From Cephalotus follicularis (lineage: Eukaryota; Streptophyta; Magnoliopsida; Oxalidales; Cephalotaceae), in NCBI GenBank assembly GCA_001972305.1, contig BDDD01001634.1:132457-196456 (forward strand): 64,000 bases of DNA. The letters run 5' to 3'. Position 1 is the first letter of the stretch. Every line of letters starts with the position of its first letter. A program made the translations under genes and the position numbers. Below are positions 6,408 through 64,000 of this stretch, piece after piece. The notes beneath the pieces are model-generated. The model ran no database searches. It was given only the letters and a program-made list of their open reading frames with translations, and had not been told where the DNA came from.

Positions 6408-6620
6408 TAAGCGTCGATGCTTAGCCCCAGGCGTCAACAGTTTTAAAAAGCACAAGTATAAAGCGTCAATGGTTTATTTTAAAGCATAAGGCATTGATTG
6501 TTTGGTTTAACTCATAAGAGCGTTGACTGTAAGTTTAACACATAAAAGCGTCGACTGTAAGTTCAACACATAAAAGCGTCGACAGGTTTAGTTTTGAAAG
6601 CATAAAGCGTCGACGGTTTT
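6408..6620. repeat. GTCGAC palindrome array in LTR
   Basis: About nine units such as AAGCGTCGATGCTT, GCGTCAAC, GCGTTGAC and AAAGCGTCGAC, spaced about 20-35 bp. Three keep the exact GTCGAC core; the others differ mostly by C-to-T or G-to-A at CpG. Confidence 0.75.
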
Positions 6621-6807
6621 GATAGAAAATGTAGTTTGTGAAAGAGTTCGTAAACCAACGGAACTATGTCCGAAACAGTTCAAAGCCTTTTAAAATTCAT
6701 CCCATAGCCCGTGAATTGAGAGAAGGCAAGAATTCATCTTCTCTTAATTCAACGTTGAACCCTTATATCATATGCCATATGCAGTATATATATCCATCTG
6801 TATGCTC

Positions 6808-6834
6808 GTATATATATATATATATATATATATA
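6808..6834. repeat. (TA)n microsatellite
   Basis: An uninterrupted run of about 13 TA dinucleotides inside the LTR. Confidence 0.9.
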
Positions 6835-7154
6835 CACAATCATGCATCCACACAAATACAATTCATACACGTCAATCCATATAATTATTTAGAATGCATG
6901 AATGTAATGCAAGCAATAGTATAACCTACCTCTTAGCAATTGAGCTCGTAAAGTTCGGAAATCCTCTATCCTTGATCGTTTTGCTTATCCTTGATCGTTT
7001 CCTTTATCCTGCATGTACAACACATTTCTGTTACACTCTACGCACGGAAACCAAGAACAGCCGTCATCGAAGCTTCGGCCAGTTTCTGGCCAACTCATTT
7101 AGCTCCGGCGAAACCCAAAAACAGGTTCCACATTGGACGATATGTTCAAAACCA

Positions 7155-8179: not shown

Positions 8180-11020
8180 CACTCGGTTGTAGCAAGGTCT
8201 TTTGTTCGGCATCTTAGTATGCCTTCGCAGTTGCTTGATCCGGCTTTGGTTCTTTCGACCCTTACAGGGACATCTGTTGTGATATATGAGTGTTTTTATG
8301 CTTGCCCTTTTGTTTTTGATGATCGGATTCGTGATTCGGATCTTCTTCCTATTGATATGTATGACTTCGATATGATTCTAGGTATGAATTGGTTGGATCG
8401 CCATCGAGCTACGATTGATTGCCACGCTCGGAGGATTTTGTTCGGGGATGTGGATAGACCTGATTTTATTTATCAGGGTTCACAGGCAAGAAAAGAAGTT
8501 AAAGTTATATCTGATTTGAAGGCTCGGAAGTTGGTAGCTAAGGGCGCTGAGGGTTTCTTAGCTGTTGTGAAAGATGTCTCTAAGGTTGAGCCTCACCTTG
8601 AAGACTATCTTGTGGTTCGAGAGTTTTCAGATGTGTTTCCGGAGAAGTTACCAGGTTTGCCACTGCAACGGGAAGTGGAGTTTACCATTGAGCTCATTCC
8701 TGGGGCGGCGCCTATATCTAAAGCACCTTATAGGATGGCACAACTTGAATTACAGGAGCTAAATGAGCAGTTCCAAGAGTTGTTGGATCGGGGTTTCATC
8801 CGGTTTAGTGTTTCGCCATGGGGTGCTTCGGTTCTGTTTGTGAAAAAGAATCACGGTTCTATGAGGCTATGTATAGACTATAGGGAGTTGAATCAGATTA
8901 CTGTTCAGAATAAATACCTTCTACCTCGGATCGATGACTTGTTTGATCAACTCCAAGGTGCTCGGTATTTTTCTAAGATCGATCTAAGATCTGGATATCA
9001 TCAACTTCGGATAAAGGATGAAGATTTGCCTAAAACTGCTTTCCATACTCGGTATGGGCATTATGAGTTTCTGGTGATGCCGTTCGGACTTACTTAAGCA
9101 CTGACAGTTTTCATGGATCTGATGAATCGGGTGTTTCATGAGTTTCTGAATCAGTTTGTGATTGTGTTCATAGATGATATCCTTGTGTATTCAAAGTCAA
9201 AGGAAGAACATGAAGAACAGCTTCGTATAGTGCTAAGTATTTTGAGGAAGAATCAACTTTACGCGAAGTTTTCAAAATGTGAGCTCTGGTTGGAACAGGT
9301 GGCATTTTTGGGTCATGTGGTTACAGCTGCAGGGATTAGTGTGGATCTTGCTAAAGTTGAGGCTATTACTAAATTGCCGAGACCTACCACAGTGACAGAA
9401 GTTAGGAGCTTTTTGCGTTTGGCTGGGTACTATAGACGGTTCGTGGAAGGCTTTTCCTCCGTAGCCTTACCACTAACTCAGATAATGAGAAAGGGAGCTA
9501 AGTTTTAGTGGAATGAAGAACGGGAAGAAGGCTTTGAGAAACTGAAGAATGGTCTTGTGTCGGCACCGATTCTTCGTTTACCGCCTGGATCGGGCGGATA
9601 CCAGATTTATAGCGATGCTTCTAAGTTGGGGTATGTCTTAATGCAGCACGGTCATGTGATAGCTTACGCTTTGAGACAGTTGAAGCCTTATGAAGTGAAC
9701 TATCCTACACATGATCTCGAGTTGGCAGCAGTAGTGTTTGCGTTAGAGATCTGGAGGCACTATCTTTACGGAGAAACTTGTGATGTCTTCACCGATCATA
9801 AGAGTCTCAAGTACATCTTTACACATAAAGAGTTGAATATGCGTCAAAGAAGGTGGTTGCAGCTTCTGAAGGACTATGATCTTAATATTCAATACCACCC
9901 TGGTAAAGCAAATGTGGTAGCTGATGCTCTTAGTCGGAAGAGTTCTGGGAGTGTAGCGGCTTTGCTTACTCAGCCGCAGTTCATAGTGGATATCGAGCGG
10001 CTGGATTTGAATCTGTATGTTCAGGGTTAGGGAGGTTATGCTGCTACGATGAATGTGGAGCCTACTCTTGTATCTCGGATTAAGACAGCTCAGAGTGATG
10101 ATGGTGAGCTTTAGGCCTTAGTCCAGAATGTTGAAGAGGGTAAACAATCAGAGTTTCGTGTGGACGAGCATGGTGTGATATGGTTGGGTACTCGGTTGTG
10201 TGTACTGGCCGATACTTCTATCAGAAATGCTGTTCTGTCAGAGGCACACAGTTTTCTATTTTCTATACATTCGGGTTCTATGAAAATGTATAGAGACTTG
10301 AAAAGCAATTTCTGGTGGAATGGAATGAAAAAGGATGTAGCGGAGTTCGTTGGGAGGTGTTTGGTCTGTCAGAAGGTAAAGATTGAACACCAGTGTGCTA
10401 GTGGTTTGTTACAACCCTTGGAGGTTCTAGTTTGGAAATGGGAGAGCATATCGATGGACTTTGTTACAGGTTTTCTAAGGACTTTCAGAAGGAACGATGC
10501 TATCTAGGTAGTGGTGGATCGATTAACTAAATCATCTCACTTCTTGGCTATCCGAGAGGACTTCTCTGTTGATCGTTTGGCTGAAGTGTTTCAGCAGGTG
10601 ATAGTGAGACTCCATGGGACTCCAGTATCCATTGTTTCGGATAGGGATCCTCGTTTTACTTCGCAGTTTCGGAAAGGTTTCCAGAAGGCTTGGGGTACTA
10701 GACTCAGTTATAGTATAGCTTTCCATCCACAGACAGATGGGCATACTGAGAGAACCATCCAGACTTTAGAGGATATGTTGAGGTCTTGTGCTGTGGAGTG
10801 GACTGGGAACTGGGATGAGTATTTGAGCTTGGTATAGTTTGCCTACAATAATAGTTGGCACGCTAGTAACCGTATGGCTCAGTTTGAAACTCTGTATGGG
10901 AGGAAGTGTCGAGCTTTGACATGTTGGGATGAGGATGGAGAGCGAGTTATCGAGGGACCTGAGCTACTGCAGATCACTACTGAAAAAGTGGCAATATCAA
11001 GGGAGAGATTGAAGGCAGCT
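8180..11020 (+). mobile_element. Ty3/gypsy pol fragment, plus strand
   Basis: The piece starts inside the protease ([17 protein letters not shown] at about 8367) and runs through RT, RNase H and integrase. RT motifs include [29 protein letters not shown] and [12 protein letters not shown] at about 8800-9200. RNase H shows [24 protein letters not shown] and [18 protein letters not shown] at about 9600-9950. The integrase zinc finger ends FVGRCLVCQKVKIEHQ near 10350 and the core shows FHPQTDGHTERTIQTLEDML near 10720. Gag and the protease start are absent because the neighbouring minus-strand LTR is inserted here; the right end is cut by the LTR at 11021. It is probably Tekay/Del-like, but the chromodomain end is missing. 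Broken at about six to eight places. Confidence 0.9.
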
Positions 11021-12192
11021 TGTCACGCCTCCGTTTTCCAAGTGGACAACATTAAAGTGGTAAGGCAATCAACACAACATAATTCAGCTTATGCAATATA
11101 ACGTAAAAACAAAAAAGTCTTCAGTAGTGGAAGCAATATCATGAAGCAAGCTGAAATAAAATATGTATCATGCATCCCATACTACGTGATACGCACAGAG
11201 TTTATATAAAACCCAACATCATTGTCGATCGCCCATAAACGGAGCGTGATGATACAGTACGAAATAAAATAAACCCAAGTTACAATAATCCAGTTTACAT
11301 AGTCCTTGTTTAGTAATCCAGTACATAAAATTAAGAGAAACAACTCAGTCTTCTCTTTAAGTCTCCTTGCGTGCTCCATGTAAAAAACCCATTTCATCAA
11401 TCTGTTACAGTAGGGGGTTAGCCTTTGTCCTCACTCGGGTAAGTAGAAAAGCTCATGTATACAGTTCAAGGTCAAAGGTAATGCGTATCATGAATGAATG
11501 CATAGTGATGCAGTATGACATGTAATTTTTCACAGTAATCATATCTCCGTATGTACATATAAAAATATAGACATGTTCACAGTACAAGTATAACCTTATA
11601 GGGTTATATCAAACACAGGTAGTAAGTGTGTCCCCAAAAGGAACCAGACAAGCAGGTCGTCATAACCGTCGCCACCTCCTGGCCCCAACGTCATGCATTC
11701 TTACCCCATCCCTGTTTGCGAACGGTTTGGAGCAAGTCCTCCGTATGTTGCTTAGCACGGCGGCTAAACCAACAGCAGGTTACTAGCACAGCGGATGAGT
11801 AATCAAGAGCTTACAATCACAGTTCAATACAAGTCAAGCAACAAAATATGATTACTTGATCAAAATATATTTATTTAAAATATATTACCAATTATCAGGT
11901 TGTTATAAGTTGTAATACTTAAAAAAGTACATTTCTCCGTCTTTGGGAATACTCCCCCAGTCATTTGAAAATATAAGTTTATATTTGTCAAATATACATT
12001 TTCTTACCAAAAATGATTATAATAATCATGCAAGTTTTCCAAGATGGTTAATACATTCAGTAATCAACCACAATCAATTTACAGTACAGTAGCAGTTCAA
12101 ATGCAGGGAAAACATATGCTCAGAATGCACCTAGGGTTGTTGGTAATTAACCTAGGCCTATCACCTTCTCTAAAGGTTCAATTTCTACTGTA

Positions 12193-12392
12193 ACAGTCGA
12201 CTGTTTTTCCATAACAGTCGGTTGGATCCTTGAGTCAGTCGACTGTTCTTCCCCAACAGTCGACTGTCTTCCTCCGACAGTCGACTGTTCTGGGCAAAAA
12301 CGCATGCACAGTCGACTGTTCTTACTTGACAGTCGGCTGGATGATTGAGTAGTCGACTGTTTTACTTAAACAGTCTGCTGTTCTGGGCTGGA
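12193..12392. repeat. AGTCGACTGT palindrome array in LTR
   Basis: About nine units of ACAGTCGACTGT and close variants (AGTCGGTTG, AGTCGGCTG, AGTCTGCTG), spaced 15-30 bp. At least six keep the exact GTCGAC core. The arms differ from the GCGTCGACGC form of other LTRs. Confidence 0.85.
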
Positions 12393-13208
12393 CAGTACCA
12401 GTAATTCACTTCTAAATCCATTCAACAAGCAATTGAAACCATTCCACACGTATTCATATCACAAAATATCATCAGTAGTCATATCCTGGTCTAAAACACA
12501 ACTCAATTCATGCATTATTCTCCGTTTTCATTGTACTTCAAATGAAATCCAAACATGGTATTGCATGAAAACCAATCCAAACTCCATCCAAAATTCAGTG
12601 TGCATGTTAGGTTATTCATCAACAGTAACCACAACATTAATACAGAAATCCACAACCAACAACTACACCATTCATTTATAACCTCATTATTCTTAAACTC
12701 AAAATTCATGCATAGAATTTCTACCATTTCCCCTACTTTTGATTTCAAGTTAGAAATCGGAAGTCCACCTCTTTGTGTCTCCTTTCCAGTATCTTTGAGC
12801 CTCCCAGTAGCTCCAAGAACCGTCCAATAGTTCCAATCTGAGCTCCAAGCTTGACAATGGAGAATCCTCTCAATTCTCACTATCTTCACTCTCAATTTCT
12901 CACTATATTCTCTCTCAATTCCTCTGGTTCATTCTTATCATATTGTAGGTGAGAGAGACGAAGGGAAGAGAGCATTTATGCAGACCTCTCTCCCTCAAAC
13001 CGTTTGCATGGCACTAAGGGCCCTTCTCCCCCATTATCACTTGCATGCACACACACTTGTCACTCTTTCTCTTCTCTTCTGTCTTTGCAAGTCCTGGAGT
13101 GATGGTGCATGCTCAACACGTCCTATTTCATGTGATGGCTTCTGAAGATGCTCTTCCCATGTCAGTTTGCATGTGATTTCACCATTTGTCACAAAAACAG
13201 AGCACGAA

Positions 13209-13355
13209 CCAGTCGGCTGCCCTCCTCTGGCAGTCGGCTATTCACCTGGAAGTCTGTTGCCAAGTGTCACGACAGTTGGCCAGTCGGCTGGTTCCTGACG
13301 CCAGTCGACTGCCCCATACTTCAGCCCAACAGTCGGCTGGTATATCGCACCAGTC
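13209..13355. repeat. Second AGTCGGCTG cluster in the same LTR
   Basis: About seven units (CAGTCGGCTG, CAGTCGGCTA, CAGTTGGC, CAGTCGACTG, CAGTCAGCTG) in 150 bp, about 0.8 kb from the first cluster. Confidence 0.8.
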
Positions 13356-13523
13356 AGCTGTCCAAGCCAAAATTCCCACAATTATACTTAGAATCACACT
13401 TCTAAATGCTCTAAGTTAATTTAAATCAAGATATGAACCAGGAAATTCACCTTTTATTAATTCAAGGTAAAAACTACATCGAGGATTACAATAATACATG
13501 AAATCGAATTTCCGGGCATTACA

Positions 13524-16751: not shown

Positions 16752-16756
16752 CCTAT

Positions 16757-19144
16757 TGTAACACCCCGCGCCCACAGGGCGGACACGTGGCGTTACTCTC
16801 GATCCAATATACAATACAATGGTCGGGACTAGCAATATAAATATGCGGAAAAACTTAAAACTTTGCAATATATATATCGGTTGCGGAAGAAACAATACAC
16901 TGATCCATACATATGATACAAATCCTTTACAATACAAGCCTTTTTAATACATTAACAATCTTTCAATACAAAACACTCCAATCTCTCACAACCAGCTCCT
17001 CGGTGTCCAAGCAGTCATGCGATCAACTGTCCTCAGTCCTTCTGTCCACTGTTACCTGCTGCCCTACCTATGCAGCACACAAAGTTACAACACAGCCCCG
17101 CCCTGAAGGATGGGGTTAGCCACACTGGCTAAGCAAAAACCCCATGCAGCATGTATGCATGTACAATGTGTAGTATCGGTGACAATTTATACAACAACAA
17201 TGTGCGGTGTACAATATCAATGCATGACATGGAAAATGTACATGTACAATTGGTGATCAGACTATCCGTATGACAGTGGCCCAACAGAGCATATGGATAG
17301 GATCTATAACAACCAATCAATGGCAGACACTCAGTGGTGGTGTATGAAACACCCAATCAATCAATCAATATCCTATAGAGCATGCGACCAGGTCAATACA
17401 ATGTCAATCGGTTAGCGGTGATCAATCCCACGGAAGGTAGTCCTTCAAAAAGGGTGGGAGATCTATCTACGGTTTCCAGATTGATCAGGTCTGGAACTCA
17501 TAGATCTTCCAGCCTATGGCTGGGTCAATACGGTCTCGATGAGCTACAACCGAGGGAGCTACTGATACCATTAGGGAGCTACGGCCTCAAGGGAGCATCA
17601 ATCGACAATCAATCGGTACCGCTCATCAGCGTGTCAATACAATACAATAAGTGAAATGATCGACGGAATAGGCGGACAGAGTCAACGCCCTAACATGCCG
17701 ACATGAATCATAAGGTCGCTCTATAGGATCCATACAATATAATCAATCAATTAATCAAGTCAATACAATATTGGGTAAAGTCAATAAGTGGTGGTGTCTA
17801 ATGGAGAAATGGGAACGTGCGTCCATCGTACCGACTTAGACTCGCAACAACACTCATGACTCAAGCAATCGATCGATGTATCAATACAACGTTGAAGGAA
17901 AGCAATAAGTGGTGGTGCCTAATGGAGGGATGGGAACGTGCATCCATTTTACCGACTTAGACTCGCAGCAACACTCATGACTCAAGCAATCAATCGGTTA
18001 GTGCAATCATTAAAACTGTTTTCAAACACTTGAACACCTCAAGTGAGGCTCCGGTCAAGTGGCGATGTGAAAAGAAGTAGAAAACTAGCTTTAAAACAGT
18101 TAAAACTCCTTTCAGTACATTAGGCGTCGATGTCTTTATTGAAAGACGTCGACTCCTCTTTAAAATGGAGGAAAGACGTCGATGTCTTTCCTTGTTCATG
18201 TAGAGAATTGGCCAAAGACGTCGACGTCCTTTGAGAAAGGCGTCGACGCTTTTCAATAAAAACAGCCTGAGAATGCGCATCGATGTTCGGCATCGACGCC
18301 TTTCCCGGGAAGAGACATCTCGAGGCAAAGACGTCGACGTCTTTAGAAAGACGTCGATGTCTTTGCTGCAGAATCAAGGATATTGCACTCGTATGAGAAA
18401 GACATCGACACCTTTGGGCTAAGGGTCGACGTCTTTCCGGGCATGGTAGATTTTTCTGGTAGAAAATGGGGTCAGTCTCAGCCAAAATCCAATTAAAAGA
18501 CATTCTTTGAAAACCAAAGTTTACAATCAATCATTTAAGGTTAGTAAGACTAGTTACAACCTCCCAAATTCGATTTCAATCATTCAATTTAGCAATTAGG
18601 TCAAGGGTTTGCTATAAACCCTAAAATCCTCAATTCAATCACTCAATCATTCAATTCAATCATGCAATTCAATCAATCAATCAATCAATAAAACAGTAGG
18701 CAATTTAGTAAAGAAGTCCTACCTATCACTGAAGCTTCAAAAGTTGAGCTGACGATCAATCAATCGGCTGAAAACGCCCAATAATCCGCTACTTTCTTGT
18801 TCAATCGGTAAGCCACGACTTGTAATCACTGTCCTTGTCGATGGGGATGCAATTCCGGCTGCAAGGGAGAAAGATAGAGGCTCCAGCTAGAGAGAGAGAG
18901 GGAGAAGGATAGAGAGAGAAGAGGAAATGTGAATAATGAGAGAAAGAGAAAGAATTGACTTAAATAGTCGATTCGATCAACTCTCCGAAACTCGGCCCAA
19001 AATCCTGACTATACATGCATATAACCAATACAATATCGATAGGTATAAGAATACCTCAATACAATACGGTTCAGTACGGTCCAATACGGTACAATACGGT
19101 ACGATGTATGCATGAACAGTACCAAAGGGAATTCGGTCGTCACA
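16757..19144 (-). mobile_element. Solo LTR (2.39 kb) nested in a gypsy protease
   Basis: Both ends are clear: TGTAACACCCC at 16757 and GTCGTCACA at 19144 on the plus strand. The flanking 5-bp duplication CCTAT is perfect (16752-16756 and 19145-19149). There is no internal region, so it is a solo LTR left by LTR-LTR recombination. It is the same family as the two LTRs of the element at 45602-61427, in opposite orientation: shared pyrimidine-rich block, GATT repeats, GACGTCGACGTC array and the GCGGGGTGTTACA end. Confidence 0.95.
18121..18440. repeat. GACGTCGACGTC palindrome array in solo LTR
   Basis: About a dozen units, mainly AAAGACGTCGACGTCTTT and GGCGTCGACGCTTTT types with CpG-decayed variants (GACGTCGATGTC, GACATCGACACC). 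Spacing is 20-45 bp and irregular. At least five exact GTCGAC cores. Confidence 0.85.
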
Positions 19145-19149
19145 CCTAT

Positions 19150-20628: not shown

Positions 20629-20631
20629 TGT

Positions 20632-21229
20632 TGTCACGCCCCCGTTTTCCAAGTGGACTACATTAAAGCGGTAAGGCAATCAACACAACATAATTCAGCT
20701 TATGCACTATAACGTAAAAACAAAAAAATCTTCAGTAGCGGAAACAATATCATGAAGCAAGTTGAAATAAAATATGTATCACGCATCCCATACTACGTGA
20801 TACCCACAGAGTTTATATAAAACCCAACATCATTTTCGATCGCCCATAAACGGAGCGTGATGATACAGTACGAAATAAAATAAACCCAAGTTACAATAAT
20901 CCAGTTTACATAGTCATTGTTTAGTAATCCAGTACATAAAATTAAGAGAAACAACTCAGTCTTCTCTTTAAGTCTCTTTGAGTGCTCCATGTCAAAAACC
21001 CATTTCATCAATCTGTTACAGTAGGGTGTTAGCCTTTGTCCTCACTCGGCTAAGTAGAAAAGCTCATGTATACAGTTCAAGGTCAAAGGTAATGCGTATC
21101 ATGAATGAATGCATAGTGATGCAGTATGACATGTAATTTTTCACAGTAATCATATCTCCGTATGTACATATAAAAATATATACATGTTCACAGTACAAGT
21201 ATAACCTTATAGGGTTATATCAAACACAG
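20632..21229 (-). repeat. 5' LTR remnant of the minus-strand element
   Basis: Matches the first 600 bp of 11021-13523 at roughly 95-97% by eye, then stops at CAAACACAG, where copia integrase sequence begins without a target duplication. The remaining 1.9 kb of this LTR is missing. Confidence 0.85.
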
Positions 21230-23529: not shown

Positions 23530-23735
23530 CTCTAAAGCGTCGATGTTTTTCCTTAGGCGTCGACGCTTGTGTCCTTTTAGCGTCAACGTTCAGTCCCACA
23601 ACGTCAGCACTTTCCAGTGCCTAGGCGTCGATGTCTCCTCCCATAGGCGTCGACGTTTAAAACGTATTCAGTAATTAAAACACAGTTCACAGTACAAAGC
23701 GTCGACGCTTACCAAAGGCGTCGACGTTTTCGAGC
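23530..23735. repeat. GCGTCGACG array, first cluster of solo LTR
   Basis: About seven units (AAAGCGTCGATG, AGGCGTCGACGCTTG, GCGTCAACG, AGGCGTCGACGTTT, AAGCGTCGACGCTTACC) with 20-50 bp spacing and at least four exact GTCGAC cores. Confidence 0.85.
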
Positions 23736-24514: not shown

Positions 24515-24672
24515 AAGCGTCAACGTTGACATTCAGGCGTTGACGCTTATAGTGTTTTGTCTAAAGGGCATCGACGTCATCAACAAGTGTCGACGTGCAT
24601 GTGCATGGTTCACGTGCGCATCTTTGCTGTGTAGGCGTCGACGCTTTACCAAAGGCGTCGACGCTTTTAACC
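24515..24672. repeat. GCGTCGACGC array, second cluster of solo LTR
   Basis: About six units (GCGTCAACG, GCGTTGACGC, GCATCGACGTC, TGTCGACGTGC, two AGGCGTCGACGCTTT) about 0.8 kb from the first cluster. The two-cluster layout matches the LTR at 11021-13523. Confidence 0.85.
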
Positions 24673-39148: not shown

Positions 39149-39479
39149 GATGTGGTCAGCATTATCTCTTCCCTACTCGGCTACGACCCCGAAAGGGTAG
39201 GTAGTCGGTGGGAGTACTATCTTGGGCCAGAGAGGCAGATGAATACTTGACCTTACGGATTGTTTGTACGGAGTGTCTACAGGCCTATGGCCTTTGATGC
39301 GATACTAGGATTAGCTGAGTATACCACCGCTTAGGGACGATTGGTATACCAAAGCTGTCTGCAATTGTCATTTATACATATATATGATATGCCATGCATA
39401 CATACTGTTATATCTGTTGCATACACGGCATACAATTATATCTATTGCATACATGACATACGGTTATATCTATTGCATA

Positions 39480-39785
39480 CATGGCATATAGTATAGCCTT
39501 CTGCTTTACGGACGGTACTTCTACTGACGGTACGGTTATGGACGGTTTGGTCACGGAAGGTACGGTTACGGACGGTACGGTCACAGAAGGTACGGTTAAG
39601 GATGAGGTACGATCACGGATGGTACGGTAATGAATGGAAATGGCTGGTGAACCTACGGGTGAACTTCGCCATAGGAATGGTAATGGCTGGTGAACCTATG
39701 GGTGAACTTCGCCATAGGAATGGTAATGACTGGTGAACCTATGAGTGAACTTCCGCCATAAGTGTAGGTGAACCTATGGGTGAGT
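39480..39785. repeat. Two short tandem arrays in the solo LTR
   Basis: 39480-39640 repeats GGACGGTACGGTTAC-type units of about 15-22 bp; 39641-39785 repeats GGCTGGTGAACCTATGGG with GTGAACTTCGCCATAGG about four times. Degenerate GGTTATGGAT(C/T)G units follow to about 40065. Confidence 0.8.
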
Positions 39786-45404: not shown

Positions 45405-45601
45405 TTGGAGGTACGGTTTATATTTCTCGATGTATATATGGCACGAACTCTTATTGATCCGGGCTCATCTCATTCATACATCGCATCACATTTTATATGT
45501 CATGTTTCTGTGGAGCTCGAGTGTTTACCTTTTACAATTGAGATTAGTAATCCTGTGGGAGAATCTGTGATTCCAAAATGGATATGTAACTCTTGTGTTA
45601 T
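45405..45601 (+). pseudogene. Protease start of the outer element, up to the nested insertion
   Basis: Contains LIDPGSSHSYIASHF, the aspartic protease active-site region, and LECLPFTIEISNPVGES. It stops at 45601 where the nested LTR begins; the rest of the protease resumes at 61433. Confidence 0.85.
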
Positions 45602-50533: not shown

Positions 50534-50651
50534 TGTTGACATTTATGTCTCAATTCCTAATTTTGATGATAACACATTTGCAACTAATGACTTTGTTTTG
50601 TGCAAGATAAGCAAGAAGATAAACCAGATACAAATCAGTTCAACCAGACAA

Positions 50652-50955
50652 ACTGTCGACTGTCAAATTGAAAGCGTCAGCGCTTCTGGGATTGTGAGTT
50701 TGAAGGCGACGAGAGTTAATATGAAAGAGTCAACTTCTAAAATTGCACAAAGCGCCAGCTCTCAAATTGAAAGTGGCGACAGTCTAGCACAAAGTGTCAG
50801 CAGTTTAATGTATAGAGTATTCAAAGCGCCAGCAGTCAAAATTCAATTACGAATGACACAAGGCATCAGCGTTACTAAGAGGCGACAGTTAATATTAAAC
50901 AGGCAGCACATGAAGCGTCGACGCTTATATTAAAACCGGCGACGCTTTGATCGGG
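50652..50955. repeat. GTCGAC/GCGTCAGC array in copia U3
   Basis: About ten units: TGTCGACTG, AAAGCGTCAGCGCTT, AAGGCGACG, AAAGCGCCAGC, AAGTGGCGACAG, AAGTGTCAGC, AGGCATCAGCG, GAAGCGTCGACGCTTAT, CCGGCGACGCTTTG. The same class of motif as in the gypsy LTRs, but here clearly 5' of the TATA box. Confidence 0.75.
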
Positions 50956-51062
50956 AATTACAGTCAGATGATATCTTATCAACGCACAATTTAAGGCCAA
51001 AGTGTCCAAAATTATTCCAACGGCTACAAGACATTACACAACGGCTCTATCACCAAAAATAG

Positions 51063-51071
51063 TATAAATAG
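51063..51071 (+). promoter_or_regulatory. TATA box of the copia LTR
   Basis: TATAAATAG about 530 bp into the LTR, with about 480 bp of LTR downstream, which sets U3 and R-U5. Confidence 0.75.
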
Positions 51072-51543
51072 GGCTCAAGAAAAACCAAGAAACATCAATC
51101 AAGTCATACAGTAATTATAGCATTACTCTAAGTTGTTCTTGTCTTATTTCAAACCATTATTGTGAGCAAATTTAGTCTATATGAAGCCTTTGAGAGGTGA
51201 TACAAAAAGCTATTCATTCTTGTATTTGTTCAAGTATTTGAGGGAAGTGAACCCTTGTGTGTGTGATTGAGGTCAATCACAACTATTGTATTCGAGGTCG
51301 GATACTAGTGGAAACTCAAGGAGATCCTTGAGAAAAGTGGACGTAGGCAAGGGATTAAGCTGAACCACTATAAAACTGTGTTTGCATTCTTCTACTCTAT
51401 CTCTTTATTTTGTTAGTATAATTATTTGAATATAATTGTTGTTTTTGAATTGTTAGTTTAATTTTTATTTTGGCTAATTTTTTGAAAAAGTTCATAACTT
51501 ATTTAAAGTCTACAATTCACCCCCCCTCTTGTAGTCTTTCAAT

Positions 51544-53262: not shown

Positions 53263-56030
53263 TTGAAGACATCATCCAAAAGGAATCGCTGGTATCTCGA
53301 TAGTGGATGCTCCAAACATATGACCGGTGACAAAAGCTTATTTGTTACTTGGGAATCAAAAGACAGAGGAGATGTAACTTTTGGAGATAACGCGAAGGGA
53401 AAAATCAGTGGAATCGGATCAATAGGTAATAAAGAAATTATTATTACTAATGTATTGTATGTTGAAGGACTTAAACACAATCTCTTGAGCATAAGTCAAT
53501 TATGTGACAAGAATTGTAGAGTCATTTTTGAAAATACATCATGTAGAGTTGTAGACAACAACAATAACGCTACTACGTTTATTGGACAAAGAGAAGGCAA
53601 TGTATATGTTATGAATTTAAATGATCTACAAAATCAAAATGTTAAATGCATTGTCTCTTTAAATGAAAATAGTTGGATGTGGCATAGAAGGCTTGGTCAT
53701 GTGAGTATGAGAACTATTGCTAAAATTTTGAAACATGACTTTGTTAAAGGTCTTCCAAAATTGAGCTTTCAAAAAGATAAAATATGTGATGCTTGTCAAC
53801 AAGGAAAACAAATTAGAGCAAGTTTTAAATCAACCAACTTTGTCTCAACTTCTAGGCCACTTGAACTACTTCATATGGATCTTTTCGGTCCAATAAACAT
53901 AAGAAGGTTAGGTGGTAAGTCATATGCCTATGTTATTGTTGATGACTACACTAGGTACACATGGGTTTATTTTTTAGCACATAAAAGTGAAACTTTTACA
54001 TTCTTTGAAAATTTTTGTAAACTTGTTCAAAAAGAAAAAGGACTTTCTATTTTCAAAATTAGAAGTGATCATGGTAAAGAATTTGAAAATAATATTTTTG
54101 ATAATTATTGCATTGAAAATGGTTTTAAACATTAATTTCTATTTTAAAAATTAGAAGTGATCATGGTAAAGAATTTGAAAATAATATTTTTGATAATTAT
54201 TGCATTGAAAATGGTTTTAAACATGAATTTTCAACCCCTAGGACTCCTCAACAAAATGGAGTTGTTGAAAGGAAAAATAAAACCTTAGAAGAAATGACTA
54301 GAACCATGCTTTGCGAAAATGATCTTCCAAAGTATTTTTGGGTCGAAGCCACAAACACTGCATGTTATGTTTTAAATCGAACATCAATAAGGCCTATTCT
54401 CAAAAAGACTCCATATGAATTATGGAGGGGGAGAAAGCCTAACATTGGTTACTTTCGTACTTTCGGATGCAAATGCTTCATCCACAACAACGGAAAAGAA
54501 CATCTCGGTAAATTCGACTCCAAAGTCAATGAAGGTATATTTCTTGGTTATTCTAATACTAGTAGAGCATATAGATGTTTTAATAAAACAACGTTGCTTG
54601 TAGAAGAATCTATGCATGTTGTTTCCGATGAATCGAATACTATATATCCAAAACAAAAAGTTGATAGTATAGAATTTATTGAAAATAAAATTAATGATTT
54701 AAGTCTAGAAAATAAAAATGAGGAACCAAAACAAGAAATAATAGATAACTACCAAGAAAATCTTTATGATAAAACTTTGAAGGTAGTTAAAGGACATCCT
54801 CATGAGGCTATAATAGGTGATCCTAGGCAAGGCATAGTTACTAGGTCTTCTGTTAATCATAATTATATAGCATTTCTTTCTCAGATAGAACCTAAAAATA
54901 TAAAAGAGGCTGAGAATGATGATAATTGGATAATAGCTATGCAAGAGGAGTTAAACCAGTTTGAACGAAATAAAGTTTGGAATCTTGTACCTAGACCTAG
55001 TAATCATAATATTATTGGAACTAAATGGGTTTTTAGGAATAAAATGGATGATCAAGGTATAATTGTTAGAAATAAAGCTAGGCTGGTAGCTAAAGGATAT
55101 TCTCAAGAGGAAGGAATTGATTTCGATGAGTCATATGCACCTGTAGCTCGTTTAGAGTCTATTAGAATTTTGCTTGCATATGCATCTTTTAAAGATTTTA
55201 TACTTTATCAAATGGATGTAAAAAGTGCTTTTTTAAATGGTTTGATAAAAGAGGAAGTATATGTTGAACAACCACCTGGTTTTGAAAATCCACATTTTCC
55301 AAACCATGTTTTTAAACTTTCAAAAGCTTTGTATGGATTAAAACAAGCTCCTCGAGCTTGGTATGAAAAATTGAGTGGTTATTTGCTTAAAAATAATTTT
55401 AAAAGAGGATCAGTAGATATAACATTATTTACAAAATCTTTAAATGAAGATATTTTAATTGTACAAATATATGTCGATGATATTATATTTGGTTCGACTA
55501 ATGAAAGTTTGTGCAAGGATTTTGCTAAGATTATGCAGGATGAGTTCGAAATGAGTATGATGGGAGAATTGAATTTCTTCCTTGGACTACAAGTAAAACA
55601 ACTCAAAGATGGCATATTCATTAATCAATCAAAATACGTTAAAGATTTACTCAAGCGCTTTGGGATGGATAATGCAAAGAAAAGCAAAACTCCAATGAGT
55701 ACAACAACAAGGTTAGATAAAGATGAGCAAGGTAAATCAGTTGATCAAAACTATATAGAAGTATGATTGGATCTTTGCTTTATTTAACTGCTAGTAGACC
55801 AGATATTTTATTTAGTGTATGTTTATGTGCTCGTTTTCAAGCATGTCCCAAAGAATCACATCTTCATGCTGTCAAACGTATTTTTAAATACTTAGCATAT
55901 ACACCATCTTTAGGTTTATGGTATCCTAAAAATTCTACTTTTGATTTGCATACATATTCGGATGCTGATTTTGGAGGATACAAAGTTGATAGAAAAAGTA
56001 CTAGTGGTACTTGTCAGTTTTTAGGAAAAC
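53263..56030 (+). pseudogene. pol (protease, integrase, RT, RNase H) of the Sirevirus-like copia
   Basis: Protease RWYLDSGCSKHMTGD (about 53287-53330). Integrase zinc finger HRRLGHVSM to CDACQQGKQ (about 53683-53815), core [44 protein letters not shown] (about 53870-54100) and C-terminus [20 protein letters not shown] (about 54460-54530). [90 protein letters not shown] (about 54960-55500). RNase H start YSDADFGGYKVDRKSTSGTC (about 55950-56020). The reading leaves the family after QFLG. A few breaks. Confidence 0.9.
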
Positions 56031-56810: not shown

Positions 56811-56835
56811 NNNNNNNNNNNNNNNNNNNNNNNNN
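56811..56835. other. Assembly gap (25 N)
   Basis: A run of 25 N separates the copia side from gypsy RT sequence. The gypsy RT lacks the stretch between LDQFIVV (50533) and IVSGNGLS (56839), and the copia lacks its 3' LTR, so the real gap is probably larger than 25 bases. Confidence 0.95.
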
Positions 56836-58935
56836 ATATTGTTTCTGGTAATGGTTTATCAGTGGATCCATCGAAAGTAGAGGGAGTGAAAGATTGGAAA
56901 CAACCGACGAATGCTTCCGAAGTTCGCAACTTCTTGGGTTAGCAGGGTATTATCGTCGGTTTGTTGAGGGATTTTCCCGTATTGCTACACCGTTGACCAG
57001 ATTGACACAGAAGAACGCTGCCTTTGTATGGGATAACGATTGTGAAAGAAGTTTTCAACAGTTGAAAGACAGATTGATTTTCGCTCCTGTCCTAGCGTTG
57101 CTAGACGGGAACAAAGACTTTGTTGTATACATCGATACTTCTGGAAAGGGGCTTGGTTGTGTTCTTATGCAATACGGCAAAGTGATCGCATATGCATCGA
57201 GAAGGATCAAACCACATGAAGAAAACTACCCAGTGCATGACTTGGAGTTGGCAGCCATTGTCTTTGCTCTTGGAAAATGGCGCCACTACCTTTATGGGAC
57301 CAAATTCACAGTTTTCACTGATCATAAGAGTCTGAGATATCTCTTTTCACAGAAGGAATTGAACATGAGACAGAGAAGGTGGTTTGAGCTTCTTAATGAT
57401 TATGATTGTGATATCGAATATCATCCTGGAAAAGCCAATGTCGTTGCAGATGCATTGAGTCGCAAGTTGTCTTGTATGACTCTTTCCCATATACAGGTGC
57501 AACCTGCATTGCTTGACCGAATTAGAGATGCACAGATAGTGGATATTGAATTACAGAAAGTGGCTACTGCTATTGATGAAGTATTGAAACCCGATTTCTC
57601 TCTATCTACAGATGGGTTATTGAGATACAGGAACAGAATTTGCATTCCAGCCGATAGCGAGTTGAAGGAAGAGCTTCTTTCTCAAGCTCATAAATCTTGT
57701 CTCTCTGTTCATCCAGGGAGTACGAAGATGTATCGTGACCTAAAACTTAGCTATTGGTGGACTGCCATGAAGAGAGAAATTGCAGAGTTTGTATCGAGAT
57801 GCCTTACTTGTCAGCAAGTTAAGGCAGAGCACCAGAGACCGGCGGGCTTGCTCAGCCTTTGCTCATTCTTGAGTGGAAATGGGAGCACATTACCATGGAT
57901 TTCGTGTCTAGGTTGCCTCTGACCCGTGATAGACATGATGGTATTTGGGTTGTGGTCGATCGACTCACGAAGTCAGCCCACTTCCTACCGATTCGAATGA
58001 CTTATTCTAGAGAAAAGTTATCCAGATTGTTCATGAAAGAGATTGTTAAAGCACATGGAGCTCCTGTCAGCATTGTTTCGGATCAAGACTCTTGCTTCAC
58101 TTCCAGGTTTTGGAGGAAGTTACAGGTAGCTATGGGTACAGAATTGAGTTTCAGCACTGCTTTTCATCCCCAAACAGATGGGTTGTCCGAATGGACCATT
58201 CAGACTTTGGAGGACATGCTTCGAGCATGCGTTCTCGACTTTGGAGGTAGTTGGGATGACTACGTGCATTTGATTGAGTTCTCATATGACAACAGTTATC
58301 ACGAGAGCATACAAATGGCTCCCTATGAAGCCCTGTATGGTAGGAAGTGCCGATCGCCAGTTTGTTGGGATCAGGTCGGTGAAAAGAGTATTTTGGGGCC
58401 AGAGATTGTACAGATTACCGTAGAGAAAGTGAAATTGATTAGAGACCGATTGATTGTTGCACAGAGCAGACAGAAAAGCTATGCTAATGTTCATTGCAAA
58501 GGCTTGGAGTTTAGTATTGGTGACCATGTTTTCCTCAAAGTGTCGCTCACTAAAGGAGTCATGAGATTCGGGAAGAAAGGAAAGCTTTCTCCTCGTTTTA
58601 TTGGACCTTTCGAGGTATTGGATCGGATTGGCCAACTTTCTTATAGGCTTGCCTTGCCTCCAGCATTGTCGGGAGTGCATGATGTGTTCCATGTTTCTCA
58701 GTTGAGGAGATATGTTCGAGATCCTTCGCACATCATTGAGTTTGATCAGATTCAGTTGGAACCTGACTTATCGTTTACTGAGACTCCTATACATATTGTA
58801 GACCGACAGATCAGAGTTTTGTGGAACAAGACCATTCCTTTGGTCAGTGTTCTATGGCAGTATCATGGTTCTATGGATCGCACCTGGGAGCGCGAGGACG
58901 ATATGAGAGAGACATATCCTTTTCTCTTTGACTAA
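56836..58935 (+). pseudogene. RT thumb, RNase H, integrase and chromodomain-like tail of the nested Tekay element
   Basis: RT end [19 protein letters not shown] and [20 protein letters not shown] (about 56850-56990). RNase [60 protein letters not shown] and [18 protein letters not shown] (about 57130-57470). Integrase zinc finger [20 protein letters not shown] to [16 protein letters not shown] (about 57690-57845). Core [51 protein letters not shown] (about 57890-58220). GDHVFLKVSLTKGVMRFG, FHVSQLRRYVRDPSH and a tail ending TWEREDDMRETYPFLF (58780-58935), the pattern of a Tekay chromodomain. Long open frames; few breaks in this part. Confidence 0.95.
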
Positions 58936-58975
58936 TTGTTTGTTTGACCGATGAATCTGGGGACCAGATTCTTTT

Positions 58976-58988: not shown

Positions 58989-61427
58989 TGTCATGACCGA
59001 ATTCCCTTTTGTACTGTTCATGCATACATCGTACAGTGTTGTACCGTATTGGACTGTACTGAACTGTATTGATTGAGGTATTCTTAAGCCTATTGATATT
59101 GTATTGGTTATATGCATGTATAGTCGGGATTTTGGGCCGAGTTTCGGAGAGTTGATCGAATCGACTATTTAAGTCAATTCTTTCTCTCTTTTCTCTCATT
59201 ATTCTCATTTCCTCTTCTCTCTCTATCCTTCTCCTTCTCTCTCTATCCTTCTCCTTCTCTCTCTTTAGCTGGAGCCTCCATCTTCCTCCCTTGCAGCCGG
59301 AATTGCATCCCCATCGACAAGGACAGTGATTACAAGTGGTGGCTTACCGATTGAACAAGAAAGTAGCGGATTATTGGGCATTTTCAGCCGATTGATCGAT
59401 CGTTAGCTCAACTTTTGAAGCTTCAGTGAAAGGTAGGACTTCTTTACTGAATTGCCTACTGTTTTATTGATTGATTGATTGAATTGCATGATTGAATTGA
59501 GTGATTGAATTGAGGTTTTTAGGGTTTATAGCAAACCCTTGACCTAATTGTTAAATTGAATGATTGAAATCGAATTTGGAAGGTTGTAACTAGTCTTACT
59601 AACCTCAAATGATTGATTCTAAACTTTGGTTTTCAAATAATGACTCTAAATTGGATTTTGACCCGAGATTGGCCCTATTTTCTGCACAAAATCAACTTTG
59701 CCCGGAAAAGACATCGATCCTTAGCCCAAAGACGTCGATGTCTTTCTCATACGAGTGCTATATCCTTGATTCTACAGTAAAGACATCGACGCCTATCAAA
59801 GACGTCGACGTCTTTGCCTCGAGATGTCTCTCCCCTGGAAAGACGTCGATGCTGAACATCGATGTGCATTCTCAGGCTATTTTTATTGAAACGCGTCGAC
59901 GCCTTTCTTAAAGGACGTCGACTTCTTCGGCCAGGTCTCCACACAAATAGGGAAAGACATCAATGTCTTTTAAAGACATCGACGTCTTTCCACCGTTTTA
60001 AAAAGGAGTCGATGTCTTTCACCAAAAACATCGACGCCTAATGTACTGAAAGGAGTTTTTAACTATTTTAAAGCTAGTTTTCAACTTCTTTTCACATTGC
60101 CACTTGACTAGAGCCTCACTTGAGGTGTTCAAGTGTTTGAAAACAGTTTTAAATGATTAGATTAATTGATTGATTGCTTGAGTCGTGAGTGCTGTTGTGA
60201 GTCTAAGTCGATAAAATGGATGCACGTCTCCATCCCTCCATTAGGCACCACCATTTATCGGCCTTGCATCGACGTTGTATTCATACATCGATCGATTGCT
60301 TGAGTCGTAAGTGTTGTTGTGAGTCTAAGTCGGTAAGATGGACGCACGTTCCCATTTCTCCATTAGGCACCACCACTCATTGACTTTACTTAATGTTGTA
60401 CTGACTCGATTGAATGATTGATTGTATTGTATGGATCCTATAGAGCGACCTTGTGGTTTATGTCGGCATGTTAGGTTGACTACGTCCACCTATTCCGTCG
60501 ACCATTTCTTTTACTGTATTGTCATGCTGACGAGCACGATTGATTGACGATTGACGCTCGCTGAGGGCCATAGCTCCCTAACGGCATCAGTAGCTCCCTC
60601 AGCTGTAGCTCATCGAGATTGTATTGGCTCAGCCATAGGCTGGAAGATCTATGCGTTCCAAACCTGATCAGTCTGAGAACCGTAGATAGATCTCCCACCC
60701 TTTTCGAAGGACTACCTTCCGTGGAATTGATCACTGCTAACTAATTGACACTGTGTTGACACCGGTCGTATGCTCTATAGGATATTGATTGATTGATTGG
60801 GTGTTTTATACACCGCCATTGAATGTCTGCTATTGATTGATTGATTGTTATAGATCCTATCCGTATGCTCTGTTATGGGCCATTGTCATACGGGTAGTCT
60901 GATCGCCAATTGTACATGTACATTTGTCATGTCATGCATTATATTGTACACCGTACATTGATATTGTATAAATTTTCATCGATATTGCACATTGTACATG
61001 CATACATGCTGCATGAGGTTTCTGCTTAGCCAGTGTGGCTAACCCCATCCTTCGGGGTGGGGCTGTGTTGTACCTTTGTGTGCGACATAGGTAGGGCAGC
61101 AGGTAGCAGTGGACAGAAGGACTGAAGACCGTTGATCGCATGACTGCTTGGGTACCGCGGAGCTCGTTGTGAGACATTGTAGTAGATTTTGGAATGTATT
61201 GCTTTGAGATATTGTAATGAAAGATGTATATGTACTGTATTGTAATGTTGTTTAAAGGATTGTTATGTATTGAAAAGGCTTGTAATGTTTTGTATCTTCC
61301 GCAACTGATACGTATTGTAAAGTTTTAAAGTTTTCCGCATTTTTTTATATTGCTAGTCCCGACCATTGTTTTGTGTATTTGATTGAGAGTAATGCCACGT
61401 GTCCGCCCTGCGGGGCGGGGTGTTACA
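58989..61427 (+). repeat. 3' LTR (2.44 kb) of the nested Tekay element
   Basis: Collinear with 45602-47986, including the CT block, GATT repeats, palindrome array, ATTGATTG repeats and the GCGGGGTGTTACA end. Immediately followed by GTTAT and the resumed outer protease. Confidence 0.95.
59705..60042. repeat. GACGTCGACGTC array in 3' LTR
   Basis: About twelve units; it retains AAAGACGTCGACGTCTTTG and ACGCGTCGACGCC where the 5' LTR copy has decayed forms, so the two arrays have lost different CpGs since insertion. Confidence 0.85.
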
Positions 61428-61432
61428 GTTAT

Positions 61433-63549
61433 AGAGATTGCTGGCCAGAAGTTGCTAGCGGATCTGATTGTGCTGCCTATGGGTGAACTAGATGTAATTC
61501 TTGGCATGGATTGGTTATCAGCACATTATGCCTATGTGGATTGTAATGGAAAGATTGTAACCTTCAGTATACCGGGACAACCTCAGTTCCAGTTTATTGG
61601 GACCTTAGAACAACAGACAGTTCAGACGATTTTTGCTATACATGCTGACATACTTTTCAAACAAGGTTGTAGTGGATACTTGGCGTATGTGACTGATGAC
61701 AGGAAATGGGTTCCGAAACTAGAGGATGTTCCAGTTGTCTGTGAGTACCCGAACGTGTTTCCGGAGGAATTGACATCCTTACCTCCCGAGAGAAGTGTGG
61801 AGTTTGCTATAGATCTTCTGCCAGGAACGGCACCTATATCGAGAGCTCCGTATCGTATGGCCCCTCCTGAGTTGAAGGAATTGAAATTACAATTGCAGCA
61901 GTTGCTCGATAAGGGCTTCATCAGACCGAGCGTTTCCCCGTGGGGAGCGCCCGTCTTGTTTGTTAATAAGAAAGATGGATCTCTGAGAATGTGTGTAGAT
62001 TATCGGCAGCTTAATAAGGCTACTATCAAGAACAAATACCCGTTGCCGCATATTGATGAGTTGTTCGACCAATTGAAGGGGTCGTCGGTGTTCTCCAAGT
62101 TAGATTTGAGGACAGGGTATCATCAGCTCAGAGTTAGAGCATAAGACACTTCGAAGATGGATTTTAGGTCACGGTATAGACATTACGAATTTGTGGCGAT
62201 TCCTTTTGGAGTGACTAATGCACCTGCCGCATTTATGAGCCTAATGAACCAGGTGTTTAGCCCATATCTTGACCAGTTTACTGTGGTCTTTATTGATGAT
62301 ATCTTAGTGTACTCCAAGTCTATGGAGGATCATGGAGAACATTTGCATTTGACACTACGGACTTTGAGAGAACATTGGATGTATGCTAAGTTTGATAAAT
62401 GTGGGTTTTGGCTGTAATAGGTAGCATTTTTGGGTCATGTTATTTCTGGTACTAGTCTGTCTGTGGATCCAACAAAAATAGAAGCACTCAGGGATTGGAG
62501 ACGACCATCGAACGTGACTGAGGTCCGTAGTTTCTTAGGCTTAGTGGGCTATTATCGCCGCTTTGTCGAAGGATTCTCCCGGATTGCTACGCCATTGACC
62601 CGATTAACTCAGAAGAAGATAACATTTGATTGGGATGATAGCTGTGAGCAGAGTTTTCAATAATTGAAGCATCGCCTGATGTCGGCACCTATATTAGCCT
62701 TGCCAGAGGGTGATGAAGGTTTTGTGGTGTACAGTGATGCATTCGGAAGTGGTTTAGGGTGTGTGCTTATGCAGAACGGAAAAGTGATCGCTTATGCCTT
62801 AAGGAAATTAAAACCACCGGGAGAGAATTACCCCAGTCATGATCTTGAGTTGGCAGCGATAGTCTTCGCACTACGCAAATGGAGGCGTTATCTTTATGGC
62901 ACGAAGTTTGAAGTGTATAGTGATCACAAAAGCTTGAAACACTTGTTTTCTCAGAAGGACTTGAATATGAGGCAACGAAGGTGGATGGAGTTGCTCAACG
63001 ATCACAATTGTGAAATACAATAACATCCAGGTAAAGCTAATATGGTGGCAGACGCCTTGAGTCGCCGATTAGCTTGCTTGACGATTTCGCAGATTCAGGC
63101 ACACCACAGTTGATGGACAGGATTGGAGAGGCTCAAGGGAAGGATGGAGATTTACTTGGAGTCGCCTTGGATGGATGAGGTGGATTATGGCCCGAATTCT
63201 CAGTCCATAGTAATGGATTGATAAGATACCATGGTAGAATATGTGTTCCTGATGACAAAGAGTTGAAGGACGAGTTGCTATCGCAAGCCCATCGCTCCAG
63301 TTTCTCAGTGCATCCGGGGAGTACCAAGATGTACCGAGATCTGAAGCCTAGTTACTGGTGGAATAATATGAAGCGAGAGATAGCTGAATATGTTGCCTCT
63401 TGCCTGACCTGTCAACAGATCAAGGCAAAACACCAGAGACCAGCTGGATTATTACAGCCGTTACCGGTAGCACAATGGAAATGGGAGAATATCACTATGG
63501 ATTTTGTGACAGGATTACCCCGAACGAGGACTAACCATGATGCTATATG
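61433..63549 (+). pseudogene. Protease end, RT, RNase H and integrase start of the outer element
   Basis: Protease end [20 protein letters not shown] (about 61455-61515). Linker [20 protein letters not shown] (about 61730-61790). [57 protein letters not shown] and [20 protein letters not shown] (about 61930-62345). RT thumb [20 protein letters not shown] (about 62540-62600). RNase [61 protein letters not shown] (about 62720-62980). Integrase zinc finger [20 protein letters not shown] to CLTCQQIKAKHQRPAG (about 63285-63445) and core start WKWENITMDFVTGLPRTRTN. A later LTR enters at 63550. Several breaks. Confidence 0.9.
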
Positions 63550-64000
63550 TGTAATATCCCATTTCTATGCTTACATGTTTTATGTTGGGTTTATACGTTT
63601 TGATATATGCTATGGTTTGTGAACGCTTTGATTTTTAGCTTGAAGTTTCTTTTATTTTTGTTTTCTGGGCACAAAGCGTCGACGCTCTCATTAGAACCGT
63701 CGGCGCTTTGGCTGCTGTGTGACACGTTGACGCCTAAACGTGTGACTTCGACGCGTTTTGTATTTCAGTTCTTAACCGTCGAAGCTTTAAGTAAACAGTC
63801 GACGCTTTAGTCGGCTTTCCATACCAGATTGGACGGTGGGCTGTTTAGGGAAAGAGAGGTTTTTGCCATTTTTGTTGATCTGATTTTCCTTGTTTGTTGA
63901 AACCGAATCTGCATGAAAGGGAAAACTAATTAGATGCACGATTTTATCATTTATTTTACTCGTTTTTTTTTATTTTAAAAGACTAAGAATTATTTTGAAA
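63550..64000 (+). mobile_element. LTR of a further plus-strand element, cut by the window edge
   Basis: The outer integrase reading stops at DAIC and is replaced by TGTAATATCCCATTTC, a Tekay-style LTR start. Non-coding. It carries a GTCGAC array (63673-63812) and poly-T stretches near 63966. Whether it is a full element or a solo LTR cannot be told. The likely left target duplication is within 63545-63549 (TATAT). Confidence 0.8.
63673..63812. repeat. GCGTCGACGC array in the right-edge LTR
   Basis: Six units: AAAGCGTCGACGCTC, CCGTCGGCGCTTTG, CGTTGACGCC, TTCGACGCG, CGTCGAAGCTTT, CAGTCGACGCTTTAG, about 20-25 bp apart. Confidence 0.85.

Follow-up and report, generated by a model that had tools for sequence, protein, structure and literature searches.

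Two-turn-spaced arrays of GTCGAC-centred dyad sites in Ty3 and copia LTRs of Cephalotus follicularis as candidate binding sites for host proteins

Background

The stretch of Cephalotus follicularis DNA analysed here (64,000 nucleotides of contig BDDD01001634.1, positions 132,457 to 196,456, hereafter the window) contains retrotransposons whose LTRs carry groups of short CpG-rich palindromes centred on GTCGAC. An initial annotation listed eleven such arrays, ten in gypsy (Ty3) LTRs and one in a copia LTR. It described the spacing of the palindromes as irregular and offered three readings: a binding site for a host factor, a structured RNA module, or a heterochromatin or methylation signal. The question raised by this locus is what the arrays are, and why LTRs of different lineages should have them in common.

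Results and discussion

GTCGAC arrays in the window and in the genome

The arrays are genuine. The eleven listed intervals (2,533 bp together) hold 31 exact GTCGAC hexamers and the whole 64-kb window holds 38, whereas 50 shuffles of the window that preserve dinucleotides average 6.9 and never exceed 16. Together, the window and 250 kb of genome contain 164 GTCGAC sites and 25 clusters of at least three sites, against a mean of 32.3 sites and no cluster in 20 shuffles; the counts are far above those of the controls, though in these whole stretches were shuffled and not the LTRs separately. The genome sample consists of 20 random stretches of 10 kb and five more added later (250 kb). The 20 stretches are a scripted draw from the first 190 kb of contigs 1-1600, in which short contigs are not represented. 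Loci L001-L004 were fetched by motif, are thus biased, and are excluded from the sample statistics.

The feature is genome-wide, since the four most over-represented hexamers in 200 kb of random sequence (among hexamers seen at least 40 times) all belong to the motif: CGACGC, TCGACG, GCGTCG and GTCGAC. In this first 200 kb of the sample GTCGAC reaches 5.7 times its first-order expectation, and the over-represented hexamers together give GCGTCGACGC. Searches of the assembly (1.577 Gb, 9,746 contigs) for single palindromes returned 197,377 copies of CAGTCGACTG, 73,186 of GCGTCGACGC and 9,879 of GACGTCGACGTC, against 939, 121 and 204 for the respective reversed patterns.

Two pattern scans of viral contigs (10 and 11 loci) gave only three of 21 loci with at least five GTCGAC in some 250-bp stretch. 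These were put aside as unrelated: steps are 9, 18, 28 and 37 bp in L033 and 16-19 and 39 bp in L038, while the sites of L045, a contig of 71% GC, are scattered.

Site structure and arm dialects

Calling with a symmetric matrix trained on sites gives 256 sites in 39 regions of a 314-kb sample. The site is dyad-symmetric and about 16 bp long, with a consensus of approximately AARSMGTCGACKSYTT. The arms come in two dialects, one per array, CAGTCGACTG or GCGTCGACGC (AG and CG below). Among the 39 regions, with homologous copies counted separately, 18 are pure CG, 11 are pure AG, one is mixed and nine have too few sites. The AG dialect is found in the Ty3 elements Z (in the window) and L024 (one of the loci elsewhere in the genome, which have L numbers), in the L013 copia element and in the SIRE-like LTR of L022. 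The CG dialect is found in the Ty3 elements Y (in the window) and L014 and, in degenerate form, in the SIRE-like LTR of the window. Each dialect thus occurs in both Ty3 and copia LTRs, and this independence of lineage is expected if two host specificities are met. Arm symmetry or covariation of individual sites is not above that of within-array shuffles, so there is no per-site compensation; the excess of arm symmetry over a global shuffle is due to the two dialects.

Arrays and elements in the window

The LTRs and arrays of the window are as follows.

3276-3449, unstranded: array overlooked in the initial annotation, seven matrix-called sites with steps of 20, 21, 52, 22, 21 and 21 bp
6408-6620, unstranded: array with CG-like arms, part of it a 28-bp tandem repeat, holding 3 exact GTCGAC
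11021-13523, minus strand: 3' LTR of Z, with its 5' end at 13523 (boundaries by eye)
12193-12392, minus strand: second array of the Z LTR, AG dialect, about 1.13-1.33 kb into the LTR
13209-13355, minus strand: first array of the Z LTR, AG dialect, mostly CAGTCGGCTG, about 0.17-0.31 kb into the LTR
16757-19144, minus strand: solo LTR, Y family, nested in Z and flanked by the target-site duplication ATAGG
18121-18440, minus strand: array of this solo LTR, CG dialect, GACGTCGACGTC
23530-23735, unstranded: array, CG dialect, steps of 20, 23, 21, 24, 22, 52 and 19 bp
24515-24672, unstranded: array, CG dialect
31126-31315, unstranded: listed array, degenerate at best, with no exact GTCGAC; part of it matches L018
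45602-47986, plus strand: 5' LTR of Y, target-site duplication GTTAT, primer-binding site at 47990
46296-46612, plus strand: array in the 5' LTR of Y, CG dialect
50546-51541, plus strand: 5' LTR of a SIRE-like copia element (boundaries by eye), the 3' end of which is lost at a 25-N gap
50652-50955, plus strand: array in the SIRE-like LTR, degenerate, mostly CG-like
58989-61427, plus strand: 3' LTR of Y, sharing 94% identity with its 5' counterpart
59705-60042, plus strand: array in the 3' LTR of Y, twelve matrix-called sites
63673-63812, plus strand: array in an LTR beginning near 63550, of the family of L014, L015 and L025

On our reading, the eleven arrays of the initial annotation represent about seven LTR families. 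The entries at 18121, 46296 and 59705 are arrays of a single LTR family (85-92% identical over about 500 bp), and those at 12193 and 13209 both lie in one LTR, which runs from 13523 to 11021 on the minus strand. As noted above, 31126-31315 has no exact GTCGAC, and 13209-13355 has only one. The copia array is real and degenerate, with two exact GTCGAC in 304 bp.

Evidence for the Z LTR comes from a direct repeat (11020-11631 and 20631-21237, 96% identical) and from a primer-binding site at 20617 on the minus strand. The first array of Z is upstream of a TATA-like GCATAAATGC near 12979 (by eye). The second array, with nine sites at steps of 21, 21, 21, 21, 31, 21, 20 and 21 bp, seems to lie downstream of this putative TATA box. 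The L014 LTR has a similar layout, with arrays at about 0.14-0.26 and 1.03-1.15 kb. The Y array is preceded by a possible TATA box, CTATTTAAG, near 59163 and may therefore be inside the transcript.

The SIRE-like element has the C-rich CACCCCCCCTCTTG about 22 bp before its LTR end, a primer-binding site at 51544, and Retrotran_gag_2 and RVT_2 domains (Pfam). A C-rich integrase signal near the LTR end, combined with copia-type gag and RT, identifies it as SIRE-like; the signal is a described Sirevirus feature in the text cited from PMC2829016. Its array lies at 106-402 bp of the LTR, with TATAAAT at 518 bp (51063), and five of its ten steps are exactly 21 bp (9-of-14 match rule, 50541-51060).

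Exact GTCGAC near the overlooked array are at 3418 and 3439, with another at 3000, outside the array. The flank of the 6408-6620 array at 5750-6372 matches L015 2966-3475. The region 23604-24859 matches L012 2657-3846, downstream of a Ty3 integrase, and the 24515-24672 array is probably the second array of the LTR that holds 23530-23735, since both match L012 in order.

Two-turn spacing of the sites

The spacing is not irregular, as the initial annotation had it. Among 84 neighbour distances of up to 200 bp in the sample, 31 are at 19-22 bp and none at 23-27 or 32-40 bp. Genome-wide, 174,792 pairs of GTCGAC have centres 19-22 bp apart, with 1,396 pairs at 9-12 bp, 1,069 at 14-17 bp, 6,252 at 24-27 bp and 1,925 at 34-37 bp (spacings of 13, 18, 23 and 33 bp are omitted from these bins and 28 bp is tallied alone). 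Chance predicts about 1,600 pairs per four-bp bin from about 795,000 sites genome-wide, a number extrapolated from 126 in 250 kb. The 9-12, 14-17 and 34-37 bp bins are near this expectation, 24-27 bp is about four-fold and 19-22 bp about 100-fold above it. For the AG dialect with a variable centre (CAGYCGRCTG), there are 134,463 pairs at 19-22 bp versus 4,196 at 24-27 bp.

The reversed-pattern control, CAGCTG pairs, gives 450 (9-12 bp), 368 (14-17 bp), 1,783 (19-22 bp), 398 (24-27 bp), 65 (28 bp), 262 (29-32 bp) and 209 (34-37 bp). This control, too, has its highest count at 19-22 bp, perhaps since CAGCTG is found in site variants, and the off-phase bins and the random expectation are therefore relied on instead.

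A lesser peak of GTCGAC pairs is at 28-32 bp, with 12,877 pairs at 28 bp alone and 14,874 at 29-32 bp. A spacing of 28 bp is 2.7 turns, so whole turns are not the sole rule. The 28-bp class may come from few lineages, because many of its listed spacers look alike.

With one representative for each of the 19 groups described below, 73 of 122 steps are at 19-22 bp and the best period is 10.15 bp (R 0.68). Phase coherence by pairwise distance holds clearly up to about 110 bp, is marginal between 110 and 200 bp and lacks significance at 200-320 bp. Spacers are distinct in 116 of 121 cases.

Carrier lineages and independence

When array regions joined by a blastn match (120 bp or longer, E no higher than 1e-8) are put together, the 39 regions of the 314 kb fall into 19 groups with no detected nucleotide link between them. 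Independent families number at most 19, since old homology can escape blastn. The arrays are thus not confined to copies of one LTR family, and the claim of a common centre holds across Ty3 and copia.

The carriers are Ty3 elements that are chromovirus-like, SIRE-like copia and non-SIRE copia. Arrays occur in the Ty3 LTRs of Y, Z and L014 as well as in a copia element whose RT shares 28-45% identity with the SIRE-like RT. In pairwise comparison (matches of at least 60 aa), 16 of 20 Ty3 RT matches are 57-100% identical to the window Ty3 RT, with the query included and several partial, and the remaining four are 31-40% identical. The 16 appear from these identities to be one clade, labelled chromovirus-like. 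Window 57823-58932 has the Pfam domains SH3_Tf2-1 and rve, and no chromodomain was found there with Pfam at E up to 0.01. The C-terminus of the Ty3 integrase seems to resemble that of a chromovirus (Tekay-like), hence the label "chromovirus-like". The Ty3 families may have inherited their arrays from a single ancestor.

The copia RTs of the SIRE-like element in the window and of L022 are 56-71% alike. The L022 array at 6221-6284, which has no LTR assigned to it, is followed closely by a gag ORF; Retrotrans_gag, below the gathering score, is the best Pfam match of this ORF. The L028 arrays have no element assigned to them. L013, the element with the 28-45% identical RT, has gag_2, integrase and RVT_2 domains, and its AG array is upstream of TATAAATAGGG (TATA) and the primer-binding site. 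The SIRE-like group has proliferated exclusively in plants, according to the text cited from PMC3414828.

A proposed role for the arrays

It is somewhat probable that the arrays are LTR enhancers, made of dyad sites for adjacent host proteins and gained more than once. Each array would be a multimeric cis-regulatory element built of dyad-symmetric sites. With site centres two, less often about three, helical turns apart, bound proteins would lie on one face of the DNA and could touch. The binder would be a host DNA-binding protein, most likely a dimer, that assembles on the array, and there are probably two related binders, one for each arm preference. The two-turn step, varied spacers, dyad core and near-chance off-phase counts fit side-by-side dimers on one face. 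Several observations count against this explanation: the fitted period is closer to 10.2 than to 10.5 bp, phase coherence weakens past about 110 bp, the 28-bp spacing departs from whole turns, arm symmetry shows no compensation site by site, and the second Z array and the Y array seem to be downstream of the putative TATA box.

The sequence itself shows the arrays, their consensus and spacing, their presence in several lineages and the lower divergence of sites than of flanks; protein binding, a host origin of the protein and activation are what we infer. A DNA-bound protein is favoured among the three readings of the initial annotation because of the tight two-turn spacing; a window of 19-22 bp is not what RNA hairpins would lead one to expect, and a methylation signal by itself needs no two-turn spacing. 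The arrays of the copia LTRs and the first Z array sit at what would be an enhancer position, upstream of a TATA-like box. Activation is preferred over silencing because the array is upstream of TATA in some LTRs and because divergence is lower in the sites (below). The Ty3 chromovirus-like, SIRE-like and non-SIRE copia families would have gained arrays more than once, as we propose, because their LTRs depend on the same host factors to drive or license transcription. The more specific version, a pair of host factors with AG and CG preferences that bind dyads at a 21-bp step, with LTRs of at least three lineages having independently built arrays, is tentative, and we consider it possible.

GTCGAC resembles a CBF site of barley, which made CBF/DREB a candidate, and the outward half-sites GACGCTT resemble the nitrate-responsive element, which made RWP-RK/NLP another. 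These candidates were dropped along with WRKY, bZIP and VOZ, since none fits both dialects.

Site divergence and alternative explanations

In 22 alignments of homologous copies, which overlap in sequence and have their sites called on the same data, 172 of 1,499 aligned site positions differ (11.5%), compared with 1,375 of 7,968 in array flanks (17.3%) and 2,488 of 16,805 in the rest (14.8%). Divergence is lower in sites than in flanks in 18 of the 22. This appears supportive of constraint, not decisive. In phased units there are 10 indel events in 1,604 positions, or 6.2 per kb, compared with 15.8 per kb in sequence within 1 kb and 13.8 per kb elsewhere. Relative to substitutions the values are 0.055, 0.090 and 0.061, and the near equality of 0.055 and 0.061 makes the indel test weak.

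The arrays might instead recruit a host factor that acts in silencing or on chromatin, or position nucleosomes rotationally, and so mark the LTR and not activate it. The sites are CpG-rich, and the best period of 10.15 bp is close to the nucleosomal repeat and further from the repeat of free DNA. Elements should shed silencing sites, yet these sites differ less than their flanks, and phase coherence fades past about 110 bp, which is less than the length of a nucleosome. This alternative is unlikely but is the most serious one.

A structured RNA or small-RNA source, in which neighbouring palindromes form transcript hairpins for packaging or host targeting, is improbable. Of three arrays folded, two are far more stable than their shuffles (z -7.63 and -6.62), as would be any set of palindromes, and the SIRE array does not stand out in this way (z -0.99). 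Complementarity between neighbouring arms is not above that within sites, and hairpins would require neither a step of 19-22 bp nor near-chance counts at off-phase spacings.

Recombination of LTR pieces could have moved the motif between lineages, in place of repeated origin. Ty3 and copia elements are closely nested in the window and short matches of 40-60 bp link some arrays, but these short links are the palindromes themselves. No copia-Ty3 array link of at least 120 bp was found by blastn at E 1e-8, which leaves gene conversion with a gypsy LTR without a trace at this threshold as the source of the copia array. A transfer of this kind is about as improbable as the RNA source.

It is very improbable that the arrays are a functionless 21-bp tandem repeat spread by slippage, with spacers diverging later. 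Spacers of neighbours within one array are slightly more alike (0.461) than those between arrays (0.378), and a tandem repeat finder gives 21-, 28- and 42-bp units at 6505-6583 and 12191-12384. Against this, the palindrome is kept while the spacers differ, in 19 unlinked groups, and differences are fewer in sites than in flanks. A transposon-encoded factor comparable to the VANC proteins of VANDALs (in the text cited from PMC5735166, a 9-base motif dense in the non-coding parts of its own family is bound by VANC21) is the least credible binder, since the motif is common to Ty3 and copia elements with different proteins and a scan of 20 selected ORFs, not of whole elements, found only the usual gag-pol domains.

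Comparison with known systems

The Tnt1 boxes and the heat-shock elements of ONSEN are stress-response LTR enhancers that use host transcription factors via repeated sites, as is proposed here. Each belongs to one family and has few sites, and we know of no dialects shared across superfamilies for them. Palindromes of Sireviruses were reportedly also treated in a 2016 follow-up in maize.

Among the entries listed from the open-access literature, in the parts cited, the only directly comparable cases are the Sirevirus RM boxes (Bousios et al. 2010, PMC2829016), and arrays of this type in Ty3 LTRs, or two-turn spacing, were not found. As described in the RM-box section of that report, the boxes are palindromic, contain CpG, number at least eight per element and concentrate upstream of the TATA box, in the upper LTR half. 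The same text describes them as Sirevirus-specific with a CGG-CCG core (Tnd-1 is the exception), and a common binding factor had not been identified in it. The arrays described here are likewise palindromic and have many copies per LTR (256 called sites in 39 regions, with a dyad consensus). The placement relative to TATA is like that of RM boxes in the SIRE-like LTR of the window, the L013 copia LTR and the first Z array, whereas the Y array and the second Z array are downstream of putative TATA boxes (by eye). The core differs, being GTCGAC in place of CGG-CCG; CCGG is confined to the CAGCCGGCTG variant, which the SIRE-like LTR of L022 exemplifies. The Vitis RM box CGGTCGACCG contains GTCGAC (PMC2829016, same section). 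Unlike the Sirevirus-only boxes, the arrays are also in Ty3 and non-SIRE copia LTRs, and they have two-turn spacing, whereas the RM-box section gives no spacing rule.

The VANC target motifs of VANDAL elements (Hosaka et al. 2017, PMC5735166) are also short, dense protein-binding motifs of non-coding parts, and they differ between related families. According to the text cited, VANDALs are DNA transposons with a TE-encoded factor, and the motif is mostly of one family and in one orientation. Unlike in the arrays, neither palindrome nor spacing is mentioned there for VANC motifs.

Conclusions

The wider occurrence, the shared core and the two-turn spacing extend what is described for the Sirevirus boxes. 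If the proposed mechanism is true, the approximately 175,000 two-turn site pairs in 1.58 Gb would be among the largest sets of phased binding sites imaginable per genome. If Ty3 elements and copia elements outside the Sireviruses repeatedly have this core and this spacing, the boxes would be a general LTR device, and the spacing would be a direct biochemical handle for finding the factor, with two-site probes in and out of phase. It could then be asked whether a shared host factor explains the joint success of retrotransposons in this repeat-rich genome, and whether arrays near genes rewire those genes.

Nested insertions and other repeats

Two related Ty3 elements each carry an insertion of one LTR family at a near-identical place, immediately ahead of the protease region: Y, itself a Ty3 element (LTRs at 45602-47986 and 58989-61427), in one, and the solo LTR of the Y family (16757-19144, minus strand, inside the Ty3 element Z) in the other. 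The target-site duplications of the two insertions in the window differ:

45597-45601 / 61428-61432, target-site duplication flanking Y
16752-16756 / 19145-19149, target-site duplication flanking the solo LTR of the Y family

The GAG-AP interval is reported in a published account (PMC6911290) to be a preferred region for nesting.

The SIRE-like copia element of the window has lost its 3' end at an assembly feature:

56811-56835, run of 25 N

The sequence directly ahead of this run may not be LTR of the element. The copia pol region carries a 92-bp unit in two repeats with 97% identity (54044-54230). At 39006-40037 of the window lie several tandem repeats that overlap one another, their periods ranging from 10 to 43 bp.

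Palindrome arrays

Pairs of GTCGAC palindromes 28 bp apart may have a second conserved element between them. Among the matches listed in the genome-wide scan, such pairs often share spacer words, for example CAACACGCATCAGG or CTACTCAAAC.

L033, a contig from the viral collection, has 21 GTCGAC in 2,410 bp, with an array at L033:59-842 and frequent steps of 18-19, 28 and 36-37 bp. This is a separate palindrome array of shorter step, unrelated to those in the LTRs.

A SIRE-like LTR in L022, another stretch of the same genome, contains a variant array in the AG arm dialect that is centred on CCGG (CAGCCGGCTG, CAGCCGACTG; L022:6674-6828), with steps of 20, 19, 19, 46, 21 and 20 bp. This variant forms a bridge between the GTCGAC arrays and the palindromic Sirevirus boxes with their CGG-CCG core (Bousios 2010, PMC2829016).
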